64,000 bases of DNA, taken from NCBI RefSeq assembly GCF_008642315.1, contig NZ_CP029192.1:1178001-1242000 (forward strand), given 5' to 3'. A program made the translations under genes and the position numbers. The stretch is from Streptomyces venezuelae. Lineage in GTDB: Bacteria > Actinomycetota > Actinomycetes > Streptomycetales > Streptomycetaceae. This document shows positions 24,722-36,803 of the stretch, in pieces (position 1 is the first letter of the stretch; every line of letters begins with the position of its first letter). The notes beneath the pieces were generated by a model. That model did no database searches, had not been told where the DNA came from, and saw only the letters and a program-made list of their open reading frames with translations.

Positions 24722-26146
24722 TCACGCCGCCGCCTCCTCGAATGCGAAGAGGTGATCACGGGGGCGGTCGAGGGTGGAGAGGGCGGCTTCGGCCGCGCTG
24801 ATGCCGCTGCGCACGGCGCTCTCCATGGTCGCGGGCCACCCGGTGGCGGTCCACGCGCCCGCGAGGTAGAGGCCGCGGGCCTTGGTGCGGGCGCCGGGGC
24901 GGAGCCTGCCGACACCGGGGGTGGGCGCGAAGGTCGCGGTGCGCTCGCGGGTGACGAAGAAGTCCCGCACCCCGGCGCCGTGCGCCGCGGGCAGCAGCCG
25001 CTCCAGCTCGGGCAGATAGCGCTCTCGCAGGGCGGCGACGGGTGCGTCGATCTCGTCCTGCGCGACCGACTGCGAGAGCGCCAGGTACTGCCCGTCGGTC
25101 AGTCCGGAGGCCTCGGTCCGGTCGAAGACCCACTGCACGGGCGTGCCGAGGGCGGCGAAGAACGGCCGCTTCAGCACCTTCCTGTCGTACACGACGTGGA
25201 TGTTCAGGATCGGCGCGGTGTCGATGTCGAGCAGCCGGTCGGGCTGGTCGAGGGCGCCATCGGGGAGGAGGTCGTGCGTCTCGTGCTGCGGCACGGCGAG
25301 CACGACGGTCTGTGCCTCGATGGTCTCGCCGGGAACCTCCACGCACCAACCGCCGTTGTCCGTACGGGAGATGGAGGTGACGCGTGCCTTTAGTTCCGTA
25401 CGCACTCCCGCGGCGTCGAGCGCCTTGCGGGCCAGTGTGTCGTGCAGATCACCGAGGGGCACCCGGGCCCAGCCGATGTCGGCGGCGCCCGGTTCGGAGA
25501 GCAGCCCGGTCTTGAACACCATCGCGGCGAGCCCCAGGGAGGCGTCGCCCGCGCGGGCGTTGAGCGTCGCGACGCCCACGAGGTCCCAGAGCGCCTCGAT
25601 GGCGCGCGCGGACTGACCGTTCCTGGCCAGCCAGCTGCCGAAGTCCTGGCCGTCGAGGACGGGGTCGGCCGGGTCGAGTCCCTTGAGGGCGAGCGCCGCG
25701 CGGCCCACCTTGGCGCGCTCGGCGACCGACAGATGAGGGTAGGTGGCGAGGCTCGCCGCGAGGTGCAGCGGCACGGGGAGCGCGGTGCGCCTGAGGCGTC
25801 CGAGCCGGTTGCGGTCCGCGTCGAGGACGGGCACGTCGAGACGTTCCTGCACGGGTGCGAGGTGGGTGCCTTCGATGCGGTCGAGGAACCAGCGGTAGGC
25901 GGTGCAGCAGCGCAGGTACACGTGCTGACCGTTGTCGACGGTCAGGGCCCCGCGCTGGAAGGAGAACGCGAGCCCGCCGAGCCGGGGCCGTCCTTCGAGG
26001 AGCGTCACGCGCAGGCCCGCGTCGGCGAGCGCGAGCGCCGTGGTGATGCCCGCGAGGCCGCCGCCGACCACCACGGCGGCCGCCCCTGCGGAGCGGCCTT
26101 CGGCGTCCTCGGTCAGCCCCTCGGGCTGCATGTCTTTCCTCGTCAT
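24722..26146 (-). CDS. hpnE: Hydroxysqualene dehydroxylase HpnE
   Basis: 474 aa FAD-dependent amine-oxidase-fold protein. The dinucleotide-binding motif VVVGGGLAGITTALALADAGLRVTLLEGR lies near residue 20, with GLAFSF, a TVDNGQHVYL active-site strand and a C-terminal FAD motif LYLAGAWTATGWPATMESAVRSG. It reduces hydroxysqualene to squalene as the third step of the HpnC/D/E route. ATG 26146 has GAAGGGG about 8 nt upstream. A 109-bp gap separates it from hpnD and contains a small AACGTT palindrome. Confidence 0.93.
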   Translation of the reverse strand: MTRKDMQPEGLTEDAEGRSAGAAAVVVGGGLAGITTALALADAGLRVTLLEGRPRLGGLAFSFQRGALTVDNGQHVYLRCCTAYRWFLDRIEGTHLAPVQERLDVPVLDADRNRLGRLRRTALPVPLHLAASLATYPHLSVAERAKVGRAALALKGLDPADPVLDGQDFGSWLARNGQSARAIEALWDLVGVATLNARAGDASLGLAAMVFKTGLLSEPGAADIGWARVPLGDLHDTLARKALDAAGVRTELKARVTSISRTDNGGWCVEVPGETIEAQTVVLAVPQHETHDLLPDGALDQPDRLLDIDTAPILNIHVVYDRKVLKRPFFAALGTPVQWVFDRTEASGLTDGQYLALSQSVAQDEIDAPVAALRERYLPELERLLPAAHGAGVRDFFVTRERTATFAPTPGVGRLRPGARTKARGLYLAGAWTATGWPATMESAVRSGISAAEAALSTLDRPRDHLFAFEEAAA

Positions 26147-26255
26147 GCACCCACCCCTTCGGCCGTTGCAGTCTGGGACGCGACCTTGGAGCGGAGGGTT
26201 GCCCGCCGCTTTGCGAACGTTGTCCCAACTGCCCCACGATCGATCCGGATGCGCA

Positions 26256-27206
26256 TCACACACGCCTCCGGACGGTCTGTCGTGACACGTTCCGCGCGTC
26301 GAGACCGGACAGTCCGCGCACGGCGACGTACGCCTTCTCGCGCCCGGGGAGCGAGACACGGCCGCGCAGCACCGCTTCCGGCTCCCGCTCGATGCGGTCG
26401 AGGAGGCGGCGGTAGATGCCGGCCATGGCGGCCACGCAGGCGCCGCTGCGCCGGTCCAGCATGGGCAGCAGGCGGTAGCCCTCGGCGAACAGGGCCCTCG
26501 CGCGGCGCACCTCGAAGTGGACGAGGCCCGCGAAGTCGGCTCCGGCGGGCGGCTCGGAGCCCGAGAACCCGGCGGAGCAGCCGAACTTGGCGAGATCGTC
26601 GGCGGGCAGATAGGTCCGTCCGTCCAGGGCGTCCTCGCGAACGTCCCGGAGAATGTTGGTCAGTTGGAGCGCGAGACCGAGCGTGTCGGCGTACTCGGGC
26701 GCGCGCTCGGCGTGGAGCGCCCCCCGTTCGGTGCCGAACACCCCGAGCGAGAGCCGCCCGATGGCCCCGGCGACGCAGCGGCAGTAGACCTTGAGGTCCT
26801 CCCACGTCTCGTACGTCTCACCGCGTACGTCCATGAGGACACCGTCGATGAGTTCGTCGAGGCCTTCCATGGGGATCGGGAAGTGCGCGGCGGCGTGGCC
26901 GAGGGCGACCGCCACGGGGTCGGTGTCGTCCTCCCGCACCTCGCCCGCGCGGATCCGCGCGACCGTCGCACGGGTGTCGTCGAGCCGCTGCGCCTTGACG
27001 TCCGGGGCGAGCTCGCCGTCGCCGATGTCGTCGACGCGCCGGGAGAGTGCGTAGAGCGCGGACATCGCCCGGCGCTTGGGCGTCGGCAGCAGTCTGATGC
27101 CGTACGCGAAGTTGCGCGCCTGTCGGCCGGTGACGGCCTCGCAGTAGCTGTACGCGGCGAGCACCGACGCGGATACGTGCTGATCCGACTCCACGGCCCG
27201 GCTCAC
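26256..27206 (-). CDS. hpnD: Presqualene diphosphate synthase HpnD
   Basis: 316 aa squalene/phytoene synthase family. The two aspartate motifs are RRVDDIGDGE and LTNILRDVRED, with the YCRCVAG signature between them. In HpnC/D/E loci HpnD condenses two farnesyl-PP to presqualene-PP. GTG 27206 overlaps the hpnC stop (GTGA) and is preceded by GAGGAGAGGG. Product assignment depends on the hpnC and hpnE neighbours, since sequence alone does not separate it from phytoene synthase. Confidence 0.93.
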   Translation of the reverse strand: MSRAVESDQHVSASVLAAYSYCEAVTGRQARNFAYGIRLLPTPKRRAMSALYALSRRVDDIGDGELAPDVKAQRLDDTRATVARIRAGEVREDDTDPVAVALGHAAAHFPIPMEGLDELIDGVLMDVRGETYETWEDLKVYCRCVAGAIGRLSLGVFGTERGALHAERAPEYADTLGLALQLTNILRDVREDALDGRTYLPADDLAKFGCSAGFSGSEPPAGADFAGLVHFEVRRARALFAEGYRLLPMLDRRSGACVAAMAGIYRRLLDRIEREPEAVLRGRVSLPGREKAYVAVRGLSGLDARNVSRQTVRRRV

Positions 27207-28099
27207 CCCTCTCCTCGCAGAACTGCACCCGTCTCGCGCAGCAGGCGCGGCTTGGTCGGCTTGGGCGGGCCGGGCAGGACGTCGTACCCGGCGCTGACGA
27301 TCGCCCGGGCGGCCGCCCTCCCTCCTGCCACGAACCCGGCCAGCAGCAGCTTCAGCCTGCCGTGGACGCTACCCACCAGGGGGGTGCCTTCATTCAGCAG
27401 GCCCCCGGCGCGTTCCACTTCGAATGCGACCAGCGCGCGCACCGACGCGCCCGCTGTCGGCAGGGCCAGATCTGACTCACTCACATGGAACCGCTTCATG
27501 TCCTCGACAGGCAGATAGATGCGGCCGCGCCGCAGGTCTTCGGCGACGTCCTGGATGTGCTCGACGATCTGCAGGCCGGTGCAGACGGCGTCCGAGCGGC
27601 GGACGCGCTCCGGGGTCTCCGTCCCCGTGATGGCCAGGACGAGACGGCCGATGGGATTGGCGGAGAGCGCACAGTACGCGACGAGGTCGTCGTACGTCTC
27701 GTAGCGCGTGATGATCTGGTCCTGGCGGTTGGCCTCGATCAGGTCCAGGAAGGGGGCGGCCGTCAGGGTGCCGCGCTCGGCGGCCGGGCGCAGCGCCCGC
27801 ACCAGCGGGTGGCCGGGCTCGGCACCGGCGAAGACCTTGTCCAGGTCGGCGGCGACGGCGTCGAGGAGCGGCCGCGGGTCGTCCGTGTCGGCGTCGAGGC
27901 CGAGCGTGCGGGCGTGGCGGGCGCCGGGGGCCAGGTCGCCGTCGCCGATGTCGTCGATGAGACGGACGACGCCGTAGACGGCCATGAGGTCGTCGCGCCA
28001 GGCACGGGGAAGGAAGAAGGGCGCGACGGGGAAGTTCTCGTCCGCGGCCTTGGCGAGGACGGCGGAAGCATCGCGGAGCTGGAGATCATCCGTAGCCAT
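27203..28099 (-). CDS. hpnC: Hydroxysqualene synthase HpnC
   Basis: 298 aa squalene/phytoene synthase paralogue of the next gene. It carries RLIDDIGDGD as first aspartate motif and HIQDVAEDL as second, the latter diverged from DxxxD as is usual in HpnC. It converts presqualene-PP to hydroxysqualene. ATG 28099 is chosen; GGGAG is 11 nt away. An in-frame GTG at 28108 is an alternative. It is the promoter-proximal gene of the hopanoid operon. Confidence 0.92.
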   Translation of the reverse strand: MATDDLQLRDASAVLAKAADENFPVAPFFLPRAWRDDLMAVYGVVRLIDDIGDGDLAPGARHARTLGLDADTDDPRPLLDAVAADLDKVFAGAEPGHPLVRALRPAAERGTLTAAPFLDLIEANRQDQIITRYETYDDLVAYCALSANPIGRLVLAITGTETPERVRRSDAVCTGLQIVEHIQDVAEDLRRGRIYLPVEDMKRFHVSESDLALPTAGASVRALVAFEVERAGGLLNEGTPLVGSVHGRLKLLLAGFVAGGRAAARAIVSAGYDVLPGPPKPTKPRLLRETGAVLRGEG

Positions 28100-28444
28100 T
28101 GCCGTCACATCTCCCGTTCTACACTGCCGACCCAATACATCCTATTTCGGACACGCCGCTCGGCTCTCTCCGAGGTGGGCCGTCCTCCGAAGCGGGACAC
28201 CGCGCGATATCGCCCCACTTGCCGCGAATCAGCACCTGTACAGCTTACGTTGTACAACCCAACACGCATCGTCGGGGTGTTCGGCGCATCACAACAACAC
28301 ACCGATTGGCGTCAATCTTCCTTCGCCTGCGGTGAGTTGAGGGGACCGAGGGGCCCCTGGGACACCATGTCACGACAGTGCCCCGCCGGGCTCGTCCCGG
28401 CGGGGCACCACTATCGAACGGGTGTTCCCCGTGGCTCGATCGGG
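28100..28444. promoter_or_regulatory. Region upstream of the hopanoid operon
   Basis: 345 bp between hpnC and the stop of the ABC ATPase gene, both leftward. It contains the exporter terminator (28378-28408), a pair of TGTACA palindromes (28235-28240 and 28249-28254, 14 bp apart) that could bind a dimeric regulator, and a small hairpin CTCGG..CCGAG at about 28160. It is AT-richer than its surroundings, as expected for a promoter; I cannot place -10/-35 boxes convincingly. No ORF seen. Confidence 0.45.
28378..28408. terminator. Terminator of the ABC exporter operon
   Basis: Perfect 13-bp stem (28378-28390 with 28396-28408) and 5-nt loop CTCGT, 36 bp beyond the stop of the leftward ATPase gene. 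No U-tract. It separates this operon from the hopanoid operon. Confidence 0.75.
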
Positions 28445-29233
28445 CTACTTGCCCGTGAACTTCTCGTACTCCTTTATGACCTCGTCGGTCGGCCCGTCCA
28501 TGCGCAGCTCGCCGCGTTCCAGCCACAGCACGCGGTCGCACGTGTCGCGGATCGACTTGTTGTTGTGGCTGACCAGGAAGACCGTGCCGGCCGACTTGCG
28601 CAGCTCCCGGATGCGGGCTTCCGACCGCTTCTGGAACTTGCGGTCGCCGGTGGCCAGGGCCTCGTCGATCATCAGGACGTCGTGGTCCTTGGCCGCCGCG
28701 ATGGAGAAGCGGAGGCGGGCCGCCATGCCGGAGGAGTAGGTGCGCATCGGAAGGGTGATGAAGTCGCCCTTCTCGTTGATCCCCGAGAAGTCGACGATCT
28801 CCTGGTAGCGCTCCCGGATCTGCTCGCGGGACATGCCCATCGCGAGCCCGCCGAGAATGACGTTGCGCTCACCCGTCAGGTCGTTCATCAGGGCCGCGTT
28901 GACGCCGAGCAGCGAGGGCTGGCCGTCGGTGTAGACCTTGCCCTTCTCGGCGGGGAGCAGGCCGGCGATGGCACGGAGCAGGGTGGACTTGCCGGAACCG
29001 TTGGAGCCGATGAGGCCGATGGCCTCGCCGCGGTAGGAGGTGAAGCTGACGCCGCGCACGGCGTGCACCTTGCGTACGCCGCGCTCCTCGCCGCGCTTGA
29101 GCATGCGGCTGAGCGCGGAGGTGGCGCTGCCCTTGCCGGTCTTCGCACCGTTGACGCGGTAGACGATGTGCAGCTCGTCGGCGATGACGGTGGGGATGTT
29201 CGACTTGTCGGGGTTCTTGTCTTCGTCAGCCAC
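28445..29233 (-). CDS. ABC exporter ATPase (Wzt/TagH-like)
   Basis: 262 aa ATPase. Walker A is GSNGSGKST, the signature reads YSSGMAARLRFS (the degenerate SSGM form typical of polysaccharide and teichoic-acid exporters), Walker B is VLMIDEALATGD and the H-loop VSHN. Together with the adjacent permease it forms an ABC-2 exporter for a lipid-linked glycopolymer. It lacks a C-terminal substrate-binding extension. GTG 29233 overlaps the permease stop by 8 bp. Last gene of its operon. Confidence 0.9.
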   Translation of the reverse strand: MADEDKNPDKSNIPTVIADELHIVYRVNGAKTGKGSATSALSRMLKRGEERGVRKVHAVRGVSFTSYRGEAIGLIGSNGSGKSTLLRAIAGLLPAEKGKVYTDGQPSLLGVNAALMNDLTGERNVILGGLAMGMSREQIRERYQEIVDFSGINEKGDFITLPMRTYSSGMAARLRFSIAAAKDHDVLMIDEALATGDRKFQKRSEARIRELRKSAGTVFLVSHNNKSIRDTCDRVLWLERGELRMDGPTDEVIKEYEKFTGK

Positions 29234-30170
29234 GGCCGTAACGCTCCTCAGCCTTCCAGAAGTACACGAATCCGACCGCACCGATCACCACGGCCCAGCC
29301 GACCGCGAAGGCCCACACGTGCGGCGGCAGGTACGAGGAGTCGTACTTGTCGATCATGGCGAAGCGGATCAGGTCCATGTAGATGGAGGCCGGATTCCAC
29401 TGGAGCACGTCCCCGACCCAGGCGGGCACGTCCTTCTTGGTCGCGAGCATCGCGGGGATGCTGAACATGACGCCCGAGGCGTACATCCAGGTCCGCATCA
29501 CGAACGGCATGAGCTGTGCCAGGTCGGGCGTCTTGCTGCCCATCCGGGCGAAGATCAGCGCCAGTCCCATGTTGAAGACGAACTGCAGCACCAGCGCGGG
29601 CAGGACGAGCAGCCAGGACAGGGCGGGGAAGATCCCGAAAGCGCACATGATCACGACGAGCACGATCATCGAGAAGAGCAGCTGCTGGAGCTGCTGGAGC
29701 GCGAAGGAGATCGGCAGCGAGGCCCGCGGGAAGTGCAGGGCTCTCACCAGACCGAGGTTCCCGGAGATCGCCCGCACGCCCGCCATGACCGAGCTCTGCG
29801 TGAACGTGAAGACGAAGACACCCGTCACCAGGAACGGCACGTAGATCTCGTGCGGGATGCCCTCACGGGCGCCGAGCAGCAGCCCGAAGATGAAGAAGTA
29901 GACCGCCGCGTTCAGCAGCGGCGTCGCCACCTGCCACAGCTGGCCGAGCTTGGCCTGGCTGTACTGGGCGGTCAGCTTCGCCTGGGAGAAGGCGAGGATG
30001 AAGTGGCGCCGTCCCCAGAGCTGGCGGACGTACTCGAAAAGTCCGGGGCGGGCGCCGCTGACGGTCAGACCGTACTTGGCGGCGAGTTCGGCCCGGGAGA
30101 GCCCGTCATCGGGCGACGGAGTCGACGGCGATGTCACCGCGACCCCGCCGTCATGCGTTGTCTCACTCAC
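29226..30170 (-). CDS. ABC-2 exporter permease (Wzm/TagG-like)
   Basis: 314 aa: cytoplasmic N-terminus of about 55 residues, an amphipathic elbow helix (FILAFSQAKLTAQYSQAKLGQLW) and six predicted membrane spans. The layout is that of Wzm/TagG, which move a lipid-linked polysaccharide or teichoic acid across the membrane. GTG 30170 has only a weak SD. It follows the glycosyltransferase gene after 96 bp and overlaps the ATPase gene, so synthesis and export are genetically linked. Confidence 0.9.
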   Translation of the reverse strand: MSETTHDGGVAVTSPSTPSPDDGLSRAELAAKYGLTVSGARPGLFEYVRQLWGRRHFILAFSQAKLTAQYSQAKLGQLWQVATPLLNAAVYFFIFGLLLGAREGIPHEIYVPFLVTGVFVFTFTQSSVMAGVRAISGNLGLVRALHFPRASLPISFALQQLQQLLFSMIVLVVIMCAFGIFPALSWLLVLPALVLQFVFNMGLALIFARMGSKTPDLAQLMPFVMRTWMYASGVMFSIPAMLATKKDVPAWVGDVLQWNPASIYMDLIRFAMIDKYDSSYLPPHVWAFAVGWAVVIGAVGFVYFWKAEERYGRG

Positions 30171-30266
30171 GAGTGGAAACTTTCGTCTTCGAAAAGCGCA
30201 GCCGGTCGGGCGTAGGCGTGGGCCAGGGACCGGGGTATGGCCCGAATGCTCTCAGACCCGAGCTTG

Positions 30267-31169
30267 TCAGATGACGGGAGGTCGGCCCAGTCGGGTCAGC
30301 CGCCACACCGTACGCCACTTCATGGGCCTGCGAGGCCCGCAGGGCGTGGTCCAGCCCTCCTTGAAGCCGCCGAACCAGGCCTTGAGGGCCGGGCCCGAGG
30401 GGCGTCGGGCGAGGGTGAGGAGCATCCAGACACCGAGGTAGACCGGGACCAGCGGCGCGGGGAGGTTGCGACGGGCCAGCCAGACGCGGTTGCGGGCCAC
30501 CATCCGGTGGTAGACCGCGTGCCGCGAGGGGGCCGTCGTGGGGTGGAAGAGGACCATGTCGGAGCGGTAGTCGATCATCCAGCCCGCGTCGAGCGCGCGC
30601 CAGGCGAGGTCGGTCTCCTCATGGGCGTAGAAGAACTCGCCGGGCAGGCCGCCGACCTCCGCAAGGACCTTCGTGCGGACGGCGTTGGCGCCGCCGAGGA
30701 AGGTCGTCACGCGCGAGGAGCGCATCGGGTCGGAGGCCCGCAGCCGCGGCACGTGGCGACGCTGGGTCTCCCCCGTGTCCGGGTCCGCGATGCGGAAGCT
30801 GATGATGCCGAGCTCCGGGTCGGCGGCGAACGCCTCGCGGCACAGCCGCGCCGTGTCCAGGGTGGCGAGCAGGCCGTCGTCGTCCAGGAAGAGCAGGATG
30901 TCGACGTCGGTGCCGCCCGGCCCGAACGCCTCGATGCCGACGTTGCGGCCGCCGGGGATGCCGAGGTTCTCGGGCAGCTCGACGGTGCGTACGCCTGCGG
31001 GGACCTCGGGCACCGGGGCACCGTTGCCGACCACGACCACCTCGACCGGGTCGCCCTCCTGCTTGGCGACCGAGTCGAGGAGGGCACGCAGCTCCTGCGG
31101 CCGGTTGCCCATCGTGATGATGACGGCGCCGACCTTCAGCTTCTCCGGCGCGGGGCTCAGGGTGCTCAC
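30267..31169 (-). CDS. Family 2 glycosyltransferase
   Basis: 300 aa GT-A fold transferase: an N-terminal VGAVIITMGNRPQELRALLDSV strand-loop, the NLGIPGGRNVGIEAF segment, a DDD metal/nucleotide-sugar motif in ILLFLDDDG, and EETDLAWRALDAGW in the acceptor half. The C-terminus has one hydrophobic stretch (APLVPVYLGVWMLLTLA) and may sit on the membrane. It overlaps the upstream CDP-alcohol transferase by 4 bp (GTGA). Likely adds sugar to the polymer or lipid made by this operon; specificity unknown. Confidence 0.88.
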   Translation of the reverse strand: MSTLSPAPEKLKVGAVIITMGNRPQELRALLDSVAKQEGDPVEVVVVGNGAPVPEVPAGVRTVELPENLGIPGGRNVGIEAFGPGGTDVDILLFLDDDGLLATLDTARLCREAFAADPELGIISFRIADPDTGETQRRHVPRLRASDPMRSSRVTTFLGGANAVRTKVLAEVGGLPGEFFYAHEETDLAWRALDAGWMIDYRSDMVLFHPTTAPSRHAVYHRMVARNRVWLARRNLPAPLVPVYLGVWMLLTLARRPSGPALKAWFGGFKEGWTTPCGPRRPMKWRTVWRLTRLGRPPVI

Positions 31170-31945
31170 TTCAACCTGCTCGATACGAGGATGGACACGA
31201 GGTGGAGCAGGGTCTGCAGCATCGCGATGCCCGCGAGCACCGCCACACCGAGGCGCGAGAAGAACAGGTCGCCGCGCGCCTGGTCGACGAACGCGATGAC
31301 GAGGATCAGCAGGGAGGCCTCGACCCCGAGGATGAGCCGGTGGAACTTCAGCGCGGCGGCGGCCCTGCGGGCCAGCGCCATGCCGGAGGAGCGCGGCTCG
31401 GCCGCCGACTCCTTGACCGGCTCCTTGCCCGTCTGGTGACGGGCGACGCCGACGAGGTCGGTCTCGGCCTTGATCAGGATCGCACCGAGCGCGGCCAGGG
31501 TGCCCAGGAAGGCCCACAGCCAGTCGATGCGTCCCGAGCCCCATATGTCGGCGGCGCGCAGACCGAAGCCGACCAGGACCGCGGCGTCGCACAGGTAGGC
31601 GGCGACCCGGTCCAGGTAGACCCCGGCCATCGAGTACTGCTTCTTCCAGCGGGCGATCTCGCCGTCCACGCAGTCGAGCAGCAGGTAGAGCTGGACCGCG
31701 ACCACGCCGAGGACGGCGCCCGTGATGCCGGGCACCAGCAGGGCCGGGGCGGCGAGGGCGCCGGCGACGGTCATCACGTAGGTCAGCTGGTTGGGCGTGA
31801 CCCGCGTGTTCACCAGGTGCCGGTCGATGCGGAGGGAGACCTCGCGCATGTAGAGCCGGCCGGCCCAGTGTTCGCCGCTGCGCCGGTCCTTCACCCCCGG
31901 GGGGTGAACAACCGGGCGGAGCTCAGCTACCGATGGCTTTTGCAT
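31166..31945 (-). CDS. CDP-alcohol phosphotransferase, variant active site
   Basis: 259 aa integral membrane protein of the CDP-alcohol phosphotransferase family, which transfers a phospho-alcohol from a CDP donor to an acceptor alcohol. The signature is D91-x2-D94-G-x2-A-R-x8-G108-x3-D112, but the fourth aspartate, the presumed base, is Ala116. So either the acceptor is activated differently or the enzyme belongs to a divergent subfamily. About six membrane spans. It overlaps the dehydrogenase gene by 23 bp and the GT2 gene by 4 bp. Confidence 0.85.
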   Translation of the reverse strand: MQKPSVAELRPVVHPPGVKDRRSGEHWAGRLYMREVSLRIDRHLVNTRVTPNQLTYVMTVAGALAAPALLVPGITGAVLGVVAVQLYLLLDCVDGEIARWKKQYSMAGVYLDRVAAYLCDAAVLVGFGLRAADIWGSGRIDWLWAFLGTLAALGAILIKAETDLVGVARHQTGKEPVKESAAEPRSSGMALARRAAAALKFHRLILGVEASLLILVIAFVDQARGDLFFSRLGVAVLAGIAMLQTLLHLVSILVSSRLK

Positions 31946-32990
31946 AGTCGGCGTATGCGTCCCTGATCTGGTCGGTGGACAGGTCGAGGTGTTCGAGGAT
32001 CGTGTAGCGGCCCGGGCGGGTCTGCGGAGCGAACTCCACGACCTTCACGAACTCGTCCACGGTGAATCCGATCTCCTCCGGCAGCACGGGCAGGCCGTGG
32101 CGGCGCAGCACCTGGGCCATGAACGCCGACTCCTCGTGGGCACCCCGCAGGTGCATCGCGAAGGCCGCGCCCAGGCCGCACTGCTCGCCGTGGCTGGCGG
32201 CGCGCTTGGGGAAGAGCAGGTCGAAGGCGTGGTTGATCTCGTGGCAGGCGCCGGACGCCGGGCGGGAGTCGCCCGAGATCGACATGGCGATGCCGGTGAG
32301 GACCAGGCCCTCGGCCAAGACCTGGAGGAAGCCGTCGTCGCCGACGCCGCCGGGGTGGCGGAGCACGGCCTCGCCGGCCTGGCGGGCCATGGCGGCCGCG
32401 AGGCCGTCGATGTCCTCGCCGCGCTCGCGGGCGGCGAGCTCCCAGTCACGGATGGCGGAGATGTTGGACAGCGCGTCACCGATGCCGGAGCGGACGAAAC
32501 GGACGGGCGCCTCACGGATCACATCGAGGTCGATGACGACCGCGATGGGGTTCGGCACACCGTACGAGCCGCGGCCCGCGTCGTTGTCGAGCGTCGCGAC
32601 CGGCGAGCAGAGACCGTCGTGCGACAGGTTCGTCGCGACGGCGACCAGCGGCAGACCCACACGCGCCGCGGCGAACTTGGCACAGTCGATGATCTTGCCG
32701 CCGCCGAGGCCGACGACCGCGTCGTACCGGCCCGACTTGCGGATGTCCTCGCCGAGCTTGATGGCGTCGTCGAGCGTGCCGCCACCGACCTCGAACCACT
32801 CCGCGCCGCCCAGCGAGGGCATCAGCCGCTCACGGAGCACCGCGCCCGAGCCGCCGCTGATGGCGATGGCGAGCTTGCCGGTCGACGAGCAGATCCGCTG
32901 GTCGGCGAGGACACCGGCCAGGTCGTCGAGCGCCCCCGGCCGGATGTCGACGACGACCGGCGAGGGGATGAGCCTCGTCAGTACTGGCAC
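31923..32990 (-). CDS. Iron-containing alcohol dehydrogenase family, sn-glycerol-1-phosphate dehydrogenase-like
   Basis: 355 aa NAD(P)-dependent dehydrogenase of the dehydroquinate synthase-like fold (EgsA/AraM type). It has the glycine-rich VVGLGGGKIIDCAKFAA cofactor loop, AVATNLSHDGLCSPVA, and a metal-binding Asp plus His set in GDALSN, GACHEINHAFD and HGEQCGLG. EgsA/AraM relatives make sn-glycerol-1-phosphate from DHAP, or act on a similar polyol phosphate. GTG 32990 overlaps the nucleotidyltransferase gene by 13 bp with GGGAG upstream. Substrate assignment is inference from family and neighbours. Confidence 0.83.
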   Translation of the reverse strand: MPVLTRLIPSPVVVDIRPGALDDLAGVLADQRICSSTGKLAIAISGGSGAVLRERLMPSLGGAEWFEVGGGTLDDAIKLGEDIRKSGRYDAVVGLGGGKIIDCAKFAAARVGLPLVAVATNLSHDGLCSPVATLDNDAGRGSYGVPNPIAVVIDLDVIREAPVRFVRSGIGDALSNISAIRDWELAARERGEDIDGLAAAMARQAGEAVLRHPGGVGDDGFLQVLAEGLVLTGIAMSISGDSRPASGACHEINHAFDLLFPKRAASHGEQCGLGAAFAMHLRGAHEESAFMAQVLRRHGLPVLPEEIGFTVDEFVKVVEFAPQTRPGRYTILEHLDLSTDQIRDAYADYAKAIGS

Positions 32991-33715
32991 GCGATCTCCC
33001 GGCCCTTGGCGAGGTCGTCGTGGTTGTCGATCTCGACCCACTTGACGTCGCCGATCGGGGCCACGTCGACCTTGAAGCCGCGGTTGACGAGCTCCTGGTA
33101 GCCGTCCTCGTAGTAGAGGTCGGGGTCGCGCTCGAAGGTGGTCTTCAGGGCGTCGGCGAGCTCGTCGGCGGCGGAGCCCTCGATGAGGGTGACGCCGATG
33201 TACTCACCGGTGGCCTCGGAGGGGTCCATCAGCTTGGTGATGCGCTGCACGCCCTTGGCGTCGTCGACGATGACCTTCATCTCCTCGTCGGCGAGCTGCT
33301 TCACCGTGTCGAGGGCGAGGATGATCTTCTGGCCGTTGCCGCGGGCGGCGAGCAGCGTCTTCTCGACGGAGACCGGGTGCACGGTGTCGCCGTTGGCGAG
33401 GATCACGTCGTGCTTGATGGCGTCACGCCCGCACCACAGGGAGTAGGCGTTGTTCCACTCCTCGGCCTTGTCGTTGTCGATGAGCGTCAGCTTGAGGCCG
33501 TACTTCGCCTCCAGAGCCGCCTTGCGGTCGTAGACGGCTTCCTTCTTGTAGCCGACGATGATCGCGACCTCGGTGAGACCGATCTCGGCGAAGTTGCCGA
33601 GCGTCAGGTCGAGGATGGTGGTCTCACCATCGACGGGCACCAGGGCCTTGGGCAGGGTGTCCGTGTAGGGACGCAGACGCCGTCCGGCGCCTGCCGCAAG
33701 GACGAGGCCGATCAT
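32978..33715 (-). CDS. Sugar/polyol-phosphate nucleotidyltransferase
   Basis: 245 aa Rossmann-like NTP transferase with the start motif MIGLVLAAGAGRRLRPYTDTLPKALVPVDG and the metal-binding D in LANGDTV. It resembles CTP:inositol-1-phosphate or phosphocholine cytidylyltransferases more than UDP-sugar enzymes. It probably activates the polyol phosphate made by the adjacent dehydrogenase as a CDP derivative for the two CDP-alcohol phosphotransferases. It overlaps both neighbours (4 and 13 bp). Confidence 0.85.
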   Translation of the reverse strand: MIGLVLAAGAGRRLRPYTDTLPKALVPVDGETTILDLTLGNFAEIGLTEVAIIVGYKKEAVYDRKAALEAKYGLKLTLIDNDKAEEWNNAYSLWCGRDAIKHDVILANGDTVHPVSVEKTLLAARGNGQKIILALDTVKQLADEEMKVIVDDAKGVQRITKLMDPSEATGEYIGVTLIEGSAADELADALKTTFERDPDLYYEDGYQELVNRGFKVDVAPIGDVKWVEIDNHDDLAKGREIACQY

Positions 33716-35517
33716 GCAGGTTCTCCTTCATCGTGTACGGCGGGTGCGCCCTTTTTCTCGGCGGCGACCCAGAAGCGGATGCTCTCGACGAGCACCACGA
33801 GTGCCACGGCCACGGCGAGTGCCGTGAGCGCGACGGTGAAATCGGTGGTGGACAGCAGGGTGGCGGCCAGCGCGACCACGAGGGTCCTGCCTTCTTGGCC
33901 GCCGATCGCCCGCACCAGCCGGCGCGGGGGCGCACCGGCGCCGCCCTTGATGCGGTACACCGTGTCGTAGTGATGGTAGGCGACCGCCGACACCAGCCCG
34001 AAAGCCGCGGGCAGCGCCCCGTTCACATCGGCTTTCGCCGCCAGTACCAGGACCGTGCCGTACTCGGCGGCGCGGAAGAACGGCGGGACCAGCCAGTCCA
34101 GGGGGGCCTTGAGCGGCCGCGCGAGCGCGAGACCGGACAGGACCACGTACACGACCGCGGCGACGACGACCCACGGGCTGCCGTAGGAGGTGAACGCGGC
34201 GACCGCCACGATCGCGGCGCCGCCGACGAAGGCGAGCACGGGTGCGGGCAGGAAGCGCCCGCGGCGGCCGAGGGCGGCGAAGGCCGAGCCGAGCGTGCCG
34301 TTGTCGGCGAGGTCGGCGAGGGCGTGGGCGGCGCGGTCGGTGCGGGTCGCCTTGCGGGTCAGCGAGCGCAGGACGCGTCCGGCGGTGGTGTAGCAGGCGG
34401 CGAGCGCGCAGCCGATGATCAGGACGACGAGGGTGATGCGCGGGGTGGTGACCGCGGTGAGCACGGCGATCATCGCCCAGCGCTCGCCGATGGGCAGCAC
34501 TATCATCCGGCGCAGCCAGACCGTCCAGCCGACGCTGTCGAGCTTGTCCGAAAGGGCGGCGGTGGGGCTGGTGTTGGCGGTCGCGTCGTGGTTCGCCTCG
34601 TTGAAGGAGAAGTCCACGACGTGACGGCACGTTTGGAGGACCATCGCGCCGAGGGCAAGGGCCCAGACGTCGTCGCCGTTCGCGTTGGCCGCGCCGAGCG
34701 CGAGACCCGCGTAGTACGCGTACTCCTTGGCGCGGTCGAACGTCGCGTCCAGCCAGGCGCCGAGCGTCGAGTACTGCAGGGAGTAGCGGGCGAGCTGGCC
34801 GTCCGTGCAGTCGAGGACGAAGGAGAGGAGCAGCAGCACGCCGGCCGCGACGAAGCCGCCGCGCGTCCCGGTCGCCGCGCAGCCCGCCGCGATCAGGGCG
34901 GTGAGCAGCGAGGCGGTGGTGACCTGGTTCGGGGTGAGGCCGCGGCGTGCGCACCAGCGGGCGATGTAGCGCGAGTACGGGGAGATGCAGTACGTCGTGA
35001 AGAAGCCGTCCCGCGACTTCACCGCGGTGCGCAGGCGTACGGCTTCGTCGTCGACGGCGGCGACGGCCTGACGTGCCTCGTTCCGCGCCTGCGGGTCGTC
35101 GGGCACGGTGGCGACGAGGGTGCCGAGGTCGGGACGGTGCACGTCCGTCGTGCCGGACTCCAGGGCCGTGGCGATGTCGTCGGGGAGGGCGTCGTGGGTG
35201 ACGACACCGCCCGTGGTGGTGGCCGTCGCCCGCAGCGCGCGCGTCAGCTCCGTGCGGGCCTCCGGCTTGGCCGCGACGGCGCCGGGCACCGCGGAGGCGG
35301 GGAAGCGGGGGTCGGTCAGGCCGAGGCGCAGCGCGTGGACGTGTCCGACGAAGCGTGCGTCGACGACCGCGACCCGCTGGTCGCCCGGCACGGCCGCGAG
35401 CAGCGACTCGGCGTCCGCCGCGTCGGAGGCGACCCGCACGTCGAAGCCGAGGGACCGCAGATCGCCTTCGAGCGGCGACCCGGGGACCGGCTGTCCGGTG
35501 AGGATGGCGGTCGACAG
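33712..35517 (-). CDS. CDP-alcohol phosphotransferase with DUF5941-like domain
   Basis: About 601 aa. The N-terminal about 130 residues are a soluble alpha/beta region recalling a degenerate nucleotidyltransferase. The middle holds a complete CDP-alcohol phosphotransferase signature, DCTDGQLAR..G-x3-D-x3-D (AWLDATFD), in a membrane domain. The C-terminal about 200 residues add further membrane spans (DUF5941-like). Archaeal inositol-phosphate synthases show a related NTP-transferase/CDP-alcohol fusion. The start is placed at CTG 35517, because AAGGAG lies 9 nt before it and the next standard start (GTG 35439) has no SD. First gene of the operon. Confidence 0.82.
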   Translation of the reverse strand: MSTAILTGQPVPGSPLEGDLRSLGFDVRVASDAADAESLLAAVPGDQRVAVVDARFVGHVHALRLGLTDPRFPASAVPGAVAAKPEARTELTRALRATATTTGGVVTHDALPDDIATALESGTTDVHRPDLGTLVATVPDDPQARNEARQAVAAVDDEAVRLRTAVKSRDGFFTTYCISPYSRYIARWCARRGLTPNQVTTASLLTALIAAGCAATGTRGGFVAAGVLLLLSFVLDCTDGQLARYSLQYSTLGAWLDATFDRAKEYAYYAGLALGAANANGDDVWALALGAMVLQTCRHVVDFSFNEANHDATANTSPTAALSDKLDSVGWTVWLRRMIVLPIGERWAMIAVLTAVTTPRITLVVLIIGCALAACYTTAGRVLRSLTRKATRTDRAAHALADLADNGTLGSAFAALGRRGRFLPAPVLAFVGGAAIVAVAAFTSYGSPWVVVAAVVYVVLSGLALARPLKAPLDWLVPPFFRAAEYGTVLVLAAKADVNGALPAAFGLVSAVAYHHYDTVYRIKGGAGAPPRRLVRAIGGQEGRTLVVALAATLLSTTDFTVALTALAVAVALVVLVESIRFWVAAEKKGAPAVHDEGEPA

Positions 35518-35819
35518 ACGAACTCACTCCTTGAGTACCGGCGCGGCTCGCGCCGGGCACATGCGTAAGGGGAGCGCCCCCGGGCCCATGGCGGCCGGGC
35601 GGCACGTCGGCTGAGGCTATCGGATGATGGGAAGCGGGCGTTCATCACCCGTTCACGCCCCGATAAGAGGGGCCTGCGAGGGCCTCGGCCTTCGCGATCA
35701 TCATGGTGGATGGGGGGCCGCGCCCACAAACCGCGCCCCCGTCGGTGCCCGGCTTGCCCGATTGACGGTCACATGCCCGTGCGGGGCTGCGGCCGGGAGG
35801 TCGCTTAGGGTGGGCGCCC
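35518..35819. promoter_or_regulatory. Divergent intergenic region, polyol-phosphate operon and galE
   Basis: 302 bp. It must hold the promoter of the leftward seven-gene operon and that of galE. TAGGGT at 35806-35811 ends 8 nt before the galE ATG, as in leaderless Streptomyces genes. TTGACG at 35762-35767 has no partner at the correct distance. AAGGAG for the leftward gene is at 35524-35529. No ORF recognised. Confidence 0.4.
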
Positions 35820-36803
35820 ATGACATGGCTGATCACAGGCGGAGCGGGTTACATCGGGGCACATGTGGCGCGGGTCATGGCCGGTGCCGGGGAGGACGTC
35901 GTCGTCCTGGACGACATCTCCTCGGGAGTCCCGCGGCGGCTGCCCGCGGACATGGCCCTCGTGAAGGGTTCCTCGCTGGACGGGGACCTGCTGCGCCGGG
36001 TCTTCGCCGAGTACGGCGTCACGGGTGTGGTGCATCTCGCGGCCCGCAAGCAGGTCGGGGAGTCGGTGGAGCAGCCGCTGCGCTACTACCGGGAGAACGT
36101 GGGCGGCCTCACGACGCTGCTCGACGCGGTGGCCGAGGCGGGCATCAAGCGCTTCGTGTTCTCCTCGTCGGCCGCGGTGTACGGCAATCCGCCGGACGCC
36201 GAGCTGGTGGGCGAGGACACGCCGTGCGTTCCGGTCAGTCCCTACGGGGAGACGAAGCTCGCCGGTGAGTGGCTGGTGCGGGCGGCGGGGCGGGCGCACG
36301 GCATCGGGACGGTGTGCCTGCGCTACTTCAACGTGGCGGGCGCGGCGGCGCCGGAGCTCGCGGACACCGGCGTCTTCAACGTGATCCCGATGGTCTTCGA
36401 CCGGCTGCGGCGCGACGAGTCGCCGCGGATCTTCGGCGACACGCACCCGACGCCGGACGGCACGTGTGTCCGTGACTACGTCCACGTCTCCGACCTCGCC
36501 GAGGCCCACCTGGCGGCCGCCCGCAGGCTCGCGGAGGGCGCCGAGGGCGATCTGACGGTGAACATCGGCCGGGGGCAAGGTGTCTCCGTACGCGAACTGA
36601 TCACGGTCATCGGCGAGGTGAGCGGGGATGCCCGTCCCGCGCTCGTCGAGCCGGCCCGCGCGGGCGACTCGCCGCGTGCCGTGGCCGATGCCCGTCTCGC
36701 GGCGGCGGAGCTCGGCTGGACGGCGCGGCGCGGGGTGCGCGAGATGGTCGAGTCGGCGTGGGCGGGATGGTGTCTGCACCACCCGGACGCGCGCCGCGGC
36801 TGA
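35820..36803 (+). CDS. galE: UDP-glucose 4-epimerase
   Basis: 327 aa extended short-chain dehydrogenase: NAD-binding ITGGAGYIGAHVARVM at residues 3-18, the catalytic Y-x3-K in SPYGETKLAGEW, SSSAAVYGNP before it, and RYFNVAGAA after. It interconverts UDP-glucose and UDP-galactose. Being next to the glycopolymer operon, it may supply a sugar donor, but galE also has housekeeping roles. Probably leaderless, with a -10-like TAGGGT 8 nt upstream and no SD. Confidence 0.9.
   Translation: MTWLITGGAGYIGAHVARVMAGAGEDVVVLDDISSGVPRRLPADMALVKGSSLDGDLLRRVFAEYGVTGVVHLAARKQVGESVEQPLRYYRENVGGLTTLLDAVAEAGIKRFVFSSSAAVYGNPPDAELVGEDTPCVPVSPYGETKLAGEWLVRAAGRAHGIGTVCLRYFNVAGAAAPELADTGVFNVIPMVFDRLRRDESPRIFGDTHPTPDGTCVRDYVHVSDLAEAHLAAARRLAEGAEGDLTVNIGRGQGVSVRELITVIGEVSGDARPALVEPARAGDSPRAVADARLAAAELGWTARRGVREMVESAWAGWCLHHPDARRG

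Follow-up and report, generated by a model that had tools for sequence, protein, structure and literature searches.

We describe here an operon of seven minus-strand genes at positions 28445-35517 of a 64,000-nucleotide stretch of the Streptomyces venezuelae chromosome (assembly GCF_008642315.1, contig NZ_CP029192.1, positions 1,178,001 to 1,242,000; hereafter the window), which is part of an 8.94-Mb chromosome. The operon, which begins with cdpL (start at 35517) and ends with abcA (stop at 28445), is real and conserved; it is a teichoic-acid-type cytidine diphosphate (CDP)-polyol operon with sn-glycerol-1-phosphate (G1P) as its probable point of entry. The explanation that we favour, and hold to be somewhat better than an even bet, is that it provides the CDP-polyol for a teichoic-acid-type glycopolymer of actinobacteria, carries out the transfer from it and exports the product, with CDP-1-glycerol as the donor. 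Substrates, glycerol stereochemistry, acceptor and product are all predicted from the protein families and from neighbouring genes. The genes are as follows.

cdpL, 33712..35517, minus strand: CDP-alcohol phosphotransferase domain between an N-terminal domain of uncertain fold and a C-terminal DUF5941; CTG start
nt, 32978..33715, minus strand: LicC/IPCT/CpgD-type nucleotidyltransferase, predicted CTP:glycerol-1-phosphate cytidylyltransferase
adh, 31923..32990, minus strand: Fe-ADH_2 family, predicted sn-glycerol-1-phosphate dehydrogenase (AraM/EgsA-like)
cdpS, 31166..31945, minus strand: CDP-alcohol phosphotransferase with Ala in place of the fourth motif aspartate (D4); PF01066, 34 bits
gt2, 30267..31169, minus strand: family 2 glycosyltransferase (PF00535, 38 bits), 3' of cdpS in most relatives
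abcP, 29226..30170, minus strand: ABC-2 permease of the Wzm/TagG type (PF01061, 44.5 bits)
abcA, 28445..29233, minus strand: TagH/Wzt-type ATPase in which no C-terminal glycan-binding domain was seen

In the pathway that we propose, Adh would convert dihydroxyacetone phosphate to sn-glycerol-1-phosphate, which Nt would join with CTP to give CDP-1-glycerol. CdpL, and CdpS by unusual chemistry, would then use this soluble donor to place glycerol phosphate on an acceptor that is membrane-bound and probably lipid-linked, Gt2 would attach a sugar, and AbcP and AbcA would export the product in the manner of TagGH. The same CDP-glycerol pool probably also supplies TagF-family polymerases encoded elsewhere in the genome.

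Results

An earlier note, made from the letters of this DNA, had described seven genes on the same strand with assigned families and short overlaps, and this description is confirmed: nt/cdpL overlap by 4 bp, adh/nt by 13, cdpS/adh by 23, gt2/cdpS by 4 and abcA/abcP by 8, and the sole gap, of 96 bp, lies between abcP and gt2. The Pfam, NCBIfam and PDB matches of the proteins fit the family names given there, which had overlooked the DUF5941 on CdpL and the absence of the last motif aspartate from CdpS.

Adh scores closest to the sn-glycerol-1-phosphate dehydrogenases, a placement drawn from hidden Markov model (HMM) and PDB scores, not from a tree. Of six NCBIfam models listed, NF002022, the NAD(P)-dependent glycerol-1-phosphate dehydrogenase, scored highest with this protein, at 229 bits; the glycerol dehydrogenase model gave 89 bits. 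Among its PDB matches, G1P dehydrogenases scored 6e-41 to 4e-22 and 3ce9, labelled a glycerol dehydrogenase, 1e-41, followed by other glycerol dehydrogenases at 1.5e-16 or worse and by dehydroquinate synthases at about 1e-4. By these scores the enzyme goes with the G1P dehydrogenases, and a grouping with an unrelated Fe-ADH clade, which the earlier note had named as contrary to its view, was not seen. Residues D125, H250 and H267, which we take to be the metal ligands of G1P dehydrogenases, are invariant in 39 of 39 rows and align with their counterparts in 4rgq. A search of this genome found no second adh.

The nearest solved structures to Nt are CTP:phosphocholine and inositol-1-phosphate cytidylyltransferases, and the protein retains the active-site Arg, Lys and Asp of COG1213/IPCT-type enzymes (IPCT and CpgD). 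Its R13, K23 and D110, aligned with 4jd0, are invariant in the 37 rows left after two weak matches (L025 and L059) had been dropped beforehand; in the inositol-1-phosphate enzyme, R16, K26 and D112 are described as critical active-site residues (PMC12275187). The second-best nt match in this genome reached only 39 bits.

CdpL joins a CDP-alcohol phosphotransferase domain (PF01066, 37 bits) to a C-terminal DUF5941 (PF19365, 311 bits), and proteins 97-99% identical to it were found in Streptomyces. The full D1xxD2GxxAR..GxxxD3xxxD4 motif is present, with D4 an Asp in 120 of the 120 relatives listed. Comparison of the N-terminal domain with the AF2299-type nucleotidyltransferase-like domain gave an hhalign probability of 10%, and one of six homologues matched PF12804 weakly (E 0.0056, below cut-off). 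In several loci outside Streptomyces, DUF5941 occupies a frame separate from the CDP-alcohol phosphotransferase (Pfam-confirmed for the frame in L024), so the window's CdpL fuses two otherwise separate parts; a single frame also holds both in L027, L067 and L089. AF2299 and AfDIPPS are the nearest solved structures for both CdpL and CdpS. In these enzymes soluble donors, CDP-glycerol in AF2299 and CDP-inositol in AfDIPPS, bind in a small hydrophilic pocket, where a CDP-diacylglycerol (CDP-DAG) enzyme has a lipid groove (PMC4634129), and this kinship therefore favours CDP-glycerol over CDP-DAG as the donor.

In CdpS, D4 is His in 17 and Ala in 6 of 23 orthologues, one CdpL-like row (L056_44) having been set aside, and Ala in all 120 of the nearest proteins listed. 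Across a set of 80 loci, the best 80 of at least 592 stretches in a scan of further genomes, it is His in 67, Ala in 13 and Asp in none. His occurs in most non-Streptomyces actinobacteria, and both letters are found within Streptomyces (His in L112 and L132, for example). The motif residues other than D4 are invariant in 24 rows. An Asp-to-Asn change at D4, the presumed catalytic base, almost abolished mycobacterial PIP synthase (PMC4634129). Since D4 is always His or Ala in a motif that is otherwise invariant, either CdpS uses another base or it partners CdpL. An Ala-D4 CdpS is also found apart from the other operon genes, namely in 12 of the 13 Ala loci of the 80-locus set, which belong to Streptomyces and Kitasatospora (L082, L084, L093, L099, L113, L119, L120, L122, L123, L128, L130 and L135).

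The exporter ties the operon to a second region of the same genome. AbcA scored 181 bits with the NCBIfam TagH model (cut-off 320), 158 with Wzt and 91 with DrrA, all under the curated cut-offs, and AbcP scored 63 bits with the galactan Wzm model (cut-off 380). Besides AbcA itself, the genome yielded a single match to it at E<=1e-20, with 150 out of 243 candidates scored, and this protein is 81% identical; the permease beside it is 68% identical to AbcP, and an epimerase nearby is 66% identical to the divergent epimerase beside the operon. All three paralogues sit among seven matches to PF04464 (CDP-glycerol glycerophosphotransferase) at 5.497-5.528 Mb, 4.3 Mb from the operon, which we call the TagF cluster. 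The exporter is akin in sequence to teichoic-acid and O-antigen exporters rather than to drug transporters, a grouping with which would have spoken against the earlier note: the NCBIfam ranking, TagH and Wzt scoring above DrrA, argues against a drug exporter, and so does the location of its paralogue within the TagF cluster. The operon appears to partner the TagF system.

TagF-family matches were present in 39 of 40 Streptomyces genomes, and the genus is not one without known teichoic-acid genes, as the earlier note had envisaged for genomes that keep the gene order. No match to TagD above cut-off was found in any of 48 genomes, 31 of which had a weaker one, and 2 of 14 control genomes exceeded the cut-off; in this genome there was no TagD match whatever, and the TarI search returned only the true IspD (216 bits) and two matches below 36 bits. 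We searched for TarI-like proteins in 15 Streptomyces genomes without a TagD match, this genome included. Seven of them (this genome, G161, G524, G610, G627, G643 and G714) have TagF-family genes but no TarI-like protein, and a second nt-adh pair is present in two of the seven, G524 and G627. As these seven TagF-bearing genomes contain no recognisable TagD or TarI, we infer that nt-adh is their best candidate source of CDP-polyol for TagF. Such absences rest on genome searches and not on the open reading frame (ORF) caller, which missed some true genes, including two of the seven TagF matches. PcrB was found in none of the 10 genomes searched, and an archaeal-type ether lipid is therefore an unlikely use of G1P.

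PF04464 genes also lie close to some of the operon's relatives, in the fetched stretch of 7 of the 40 first-set loci (L027, L033, L035, L043, L055, L056 and L062; within 8.3 kb, Pfam-confirmed), a count that leaves out an extra weak match in L044 (39 bits). A custom TagF HMM matched in 6 of the 80 loci, without Pfam confirmation; it had been built from six loci's own sequences, in which its matches are circular. Some Streptomyces loci (L064-L066) encode a weakly TagD-like cytidylyltransferase (67-68 bits, cut-off 165) near frames that look CDP-alcohol phosphotransferase-like (L065 and L066) and GT4-like (L064 and L065), perhaps a second CDP-alcohol pathway. In L044 an IspD-SDR fusion (L044:4617-6023), TarI/TarJ-like and presumably of the ribitol type, adjoins cdpL-nt-adh-cdpS-gt2, and both polyol donors may be made at this single locus.

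In a class-wide draw of 394 genomes, adh was found at E<=1e-40 in 100, including all 40 Streptomyces genomes listed, and no Streptomyces appeared among the 20 shown of the 294 non-matching rows. Directly adjoining adh in 34 of the 38 fetched adh loci was nt, the exceptions being L029 (a 4.3-kb contig), L031, L035 and L042. A distant member of the phylum, L024, keeps the whole order (cdpL, DUF5941, nt, adh, cdpS, gt2, abcP, abcA) at 28-58% identity. Half of the 80-locus set (40 loci) has nt, adh and gt2, and in 39 of these 40 nt-adh-cdpS-gt2 are contiguous on one strand; both exporter genes were matched in 33 and cdpL in 28, and the 40 include records of Nocardiopsis, Kitasatospora, Streptacidiphilus, Microtetraspora, Nitriliruptorales and Solirubrobacterales. 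The linkage of neighbours that the earlier note had proposed to look for in relatives is thus present.

Several arrangements depart from this pattern. Four loci from Nanopelagicales and other actinobacterial metagenome-assembled genomes (MAGs; L079, L080, L089 and L095) have cdpS-gt2 without adjoining nt-adh; the exporter is mostly present and cdpL partly, and the opposite strand nearby encodes a distantly related nucleotidyltransferase (about 30%). Three Streptomyces genomes carry second copies, nt-adh at L060:8801-10602 and L062:8752-10538 and adh alone at L035:9391-10449, which presumably lie after an RNase E-like gene. In L060 and L062 an L21-like gene presumably flanks the copies at their opposite end, and two of the three copies have TagF-family genes close by. 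Operon genes were also found on a 9338-base contig titled as a Bifidobacterium breve MAG (L072), a title that looks like a mislabelled bin.

Upstream of cdpL is a direct repeat.

PHO-box-like direct repeat GTTCATCACCC-GTTCAC, 35640..35656, plus strand: between cdpL and the divergent epimerase

Where 0.01 matches to GTTCAY-N5-GTTCAY would be expected, the window has one, and it lies 122 bp away from the start of cdpL. A Streptomyces PHO box consists of at least two GTTCACCC-like repeats with CA pairs 9 bp apart (PMC7244524), and by this sequence criterion the repeat fits the published definition. Among the sequences with an alignable cdpL start (52 of the 119 examined, related to one another and not 52 independent cases), 38, counting the window, have a best match of at least 10/12 within 300 bp upstream of cdpL, and in 37 of the 38 the distance between its beginning and the cdpL start is 79-156 bp; only 0.5% of mononucleotide shuffles score 10. 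The strict PHO-box pattern had occurred in 2 of the first 21 upstream regions, a yield raised by mismatch scoring and exact starts. Because the far-side neighbour differs among relatives, the repeat travels with the operon. PhoR/PhoP governs the replacement of teichoic by teichuronic acid (PMC7244524). Judging from the repeat, transcription of the operon is probably under PhoP, which may either activate or repress it.

Within cdpL the first in-frame ATG, GTG or TTG is a GTG at 35439, inside the gene, and the conserved start is the CTG at 35517. Of the 52 aligned sequences, 32 start with CTG, 17 with TTG and 3 with neither of these, and none with ATG or GTG; such a start as CTG may keep CdpL translation low. 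Two further features flank the operon.

Terminator-like perfect 13-bp stem, 28378..28408, minus strand: no T run after the stem
NAD-dependent sugar epimerase (GalE-like), divergent and possibly an accessory gene, 35820..36803, plus strand: PF01370, 203 bits

The stem that the earlier note had called a terminator is thus there at its full length, without the T run; a stem of 12-15 bp occupies the same interval after the operon in 4 of 5 relatives checked. The divergent epimerase was found in only some Streptomyces loci. Beyond the 3' end of the operon, at 24722-28135, lie hopanoid-type genes, encoding two squalene/phytoene synthase family proteins and an amine-oxidase-family protein.

Discussion

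The earlier note had proposed synthesis of a polyol phosphate, its activation as a CDP derivative, its joining to a lipid or polymer, glycosylation and export. Of this, kinship and context support the synthesis, the activation and a use in a teichoic-acid-type pathway; they stop short of G1P, of the acceptor and of the choice between polymer and glycophospholipid. The further suggestion that sn-glycerol-1-phosphate would be stereochemistry of the archaeal kind needs a correction: its presence in a product is not archaeal per se, because lipoteichoic acid made from phosphatidylglycerol contains sn-glycerol-1-phosphate too (PMC8262930).

A number of observations weigh against a G1P-fed supply line for a glycopolymer. 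Adh falls below the curated cut-off of NF002022 (229 against 413 bits), AbcA and AbcP miss those of TagH (320) and Wzm (380), and CdpS is without D4, the presumed catalytic base of its family. The repeat upstream of cdpL is directed away from the operon and scores below 10/12 in 14 of the 52 sequences. In Knoellia and Terrabacter the fetched stretch has cdpL-cdpS-exporter genes and no nt-adh, which means that the transferases are not bound to this donor. A weak TagD-like match in 19 of 40 Streptomyces (58-68 bits, cut-off 165) and a TarI-like protein in 8 of 15, G601 among them, mean that many Streptomyces have other CDP-polyol sources. Pfam found no PF04464 among the seven operon proteins, the fetched stretch of 33 of the 40 first-set loci contains no TagF-type polymerase, and Streptomyces G601 has adh in a genome without PF04464; the operon must therefore also act without TagF.

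These last points suit an operon that makes and flips a discrete glycerophospho-glycophospholipid and no polymer, CdpL joining CDP-glycerol to a lipid or inositol phosphate, Gt2 glycosylating the product and the ABC pair exporting it; the genes would then not be an enzyme set for teichoic acid. Such a scheme would also fit the close proximity of two CDP-alcohol phosphotransferases and their nearest structures, AF2299 and AfDIPPS, since AF2299-like enzymes are thought to carry out such joining. We nonetheless regard it as unlikely, at something over one chance in five: the exporter's close paralogue lies within the TagF cluster, TagF-family genes recur near nt-adh, and PHO-box-like control would be expected for a phosphate-rich wall polymer, although phospholipids could be Pho-controlled as well. 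Less likely again is a teichoic-acid-type pathway with another polyol, in which Adh would reduce a different phosphorylated ketose and Nt make a different CDP-polyol. The sub-threshold score of Adh leaves room for this, as does the range of IPCT/LicC-type enzymes, which accept several phospho-alcohols, CpgD using phosphoglycerate and not glycerol-1-phosphate (PMC12275187). Set against it, the closest function-named PDB relatives of Adh have glycerol-1-phosphate as their substrate, most glycerol dehydrogenases and every listed dehydroquinate synthase being far behind, and polyglycerolphosphate lipoteichoic acid is reported from S. hygroscopicus and, preliminarily, from S. coelicolor (PMC3196553). 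It is highly improbable that the operon forms one set with the hopanoid genes next to it and that its product is a hopanoid head group. Genes resembling hpnC, hpnD and hpnE do adjoin it in the window, and hpnC-like genes occur in 20 of the 80 loci, but all 20 are Streptomyces, Kitasatospora or Wenjunlia, and the operon loci of Nocardiopsis, Nitriliruptorales, Solirubrobacterales and Streptacidiphilus have no hpn match in the fetched stretch; we reject the role on the strength of these operon genes that stand without hopanoid genes in other families.

We therefore retain the CDP-1-glycerol supply, transfer and export line as the favoured explanation. In sequenced actinobacteria there is no clear LtaS, and a proposed pathway shared with teichoic acid is described as unproven (PMC3196553). 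The operon and the TagF cluster of the same genome name a testable donor pathway for actinobacterial lipoteichoic and teichoic acid and, if the explanation is true, predict which handedness the glycerol of actinomycete teichoic acids has. A broader proposal, to which we give somewhat less than an even chance, is that Actinobacteria make CDP-sn-1-glycerol from sn-glycerol-1-phosphate of the archaeal type and use it in place of TagD-made CDP-3-glycerol for their glycerol teichoic and lipoteichoic acids, and that CdpS either represents a new class of CDP-alcohol phosphotransferase, base-less with His or Ala, or assists CdpL as a non-catalytic partner. CDP-sn-1-glycerol is a donor thought likely to be absent from bacteria, and CdpS, a CDP-alcohol phosphotransferase family that by nature does without the catalytic base, offers a direct probe of the accepted mechanism.

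In the open-licence literature we found no mention of DUF5941 by name and, in titles, abstract starts and passages, no description of this pathway; PMC8262930 was the only paper there to bring together a G1P dehydrogenase, CDP-glycerol and teichoic acid. A 2026 survey (PMC13118837), of 929 complete genomes by its abstract, reports a syntenic Streptomyces region of tagG, tagH, araM, crtB, a CDP-alcohol phosphotransferase, a GT2 and a nucleotidyltransferase, links it to teichoic acid and finds the nucleotidyltransferase duplicated in 76 genomes.

Comparison with known systems

The predicted pathway resembles TagD-TagF-TagGH of Bacillus subtilis in that a cytidylyltransferase makes a CDP-polyol, glycerophosphate is transferred and a TagGH-type exporter follows. 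It differs from that wall teichoic acid pathway in having a G1P-type dehydrogenase and not glycerol-3-phosphate, an NTP_transferase-fold Nt for TagD and, within the operon, CDP-alcohol phosphotransferases for TagF. B. subtilis also has a bacterial member of the G1P dehydrogenase family in AraM, whose G1P goes via PcrB to an ether lipid, whereas PcrB is absent from the 10 genomes searched here. With AF2299 and AfDIPPS of Archaeoglobus the operon shares class I CDP-alcohol phosphotransferase domains and, by prediction, soluble CDP-alcohol donors; unlike them, it has a separate cytidylyltransferase gene, an added DUF5941, an exporter and a CdpS without D4. In the CpgD/CDP-glycerate pathway of Caulobacter, too, a COG1213-type cytidylyltransferase activates a three-carbon phosphate for a surface lipid, but CpgD makes CDP-glycerate and gave no product from glycerol-1-phosphate (PMC12275187); the words CDP-alcohol and phosphotransferase appear nowhere in that paper. 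The syntenic region of the 2026 survey has the same gene set and is likewise associated with teichoic acid. The link of the region to teichoic acid is therefore already published, and what would be new is CDP-1-glycerol as the donor; beyond the passages of that survey consulted here, the present analysis adds the proposed mechanism, this donor, the CdpS motif, the PHO box and the relatives outside Streptomyces.

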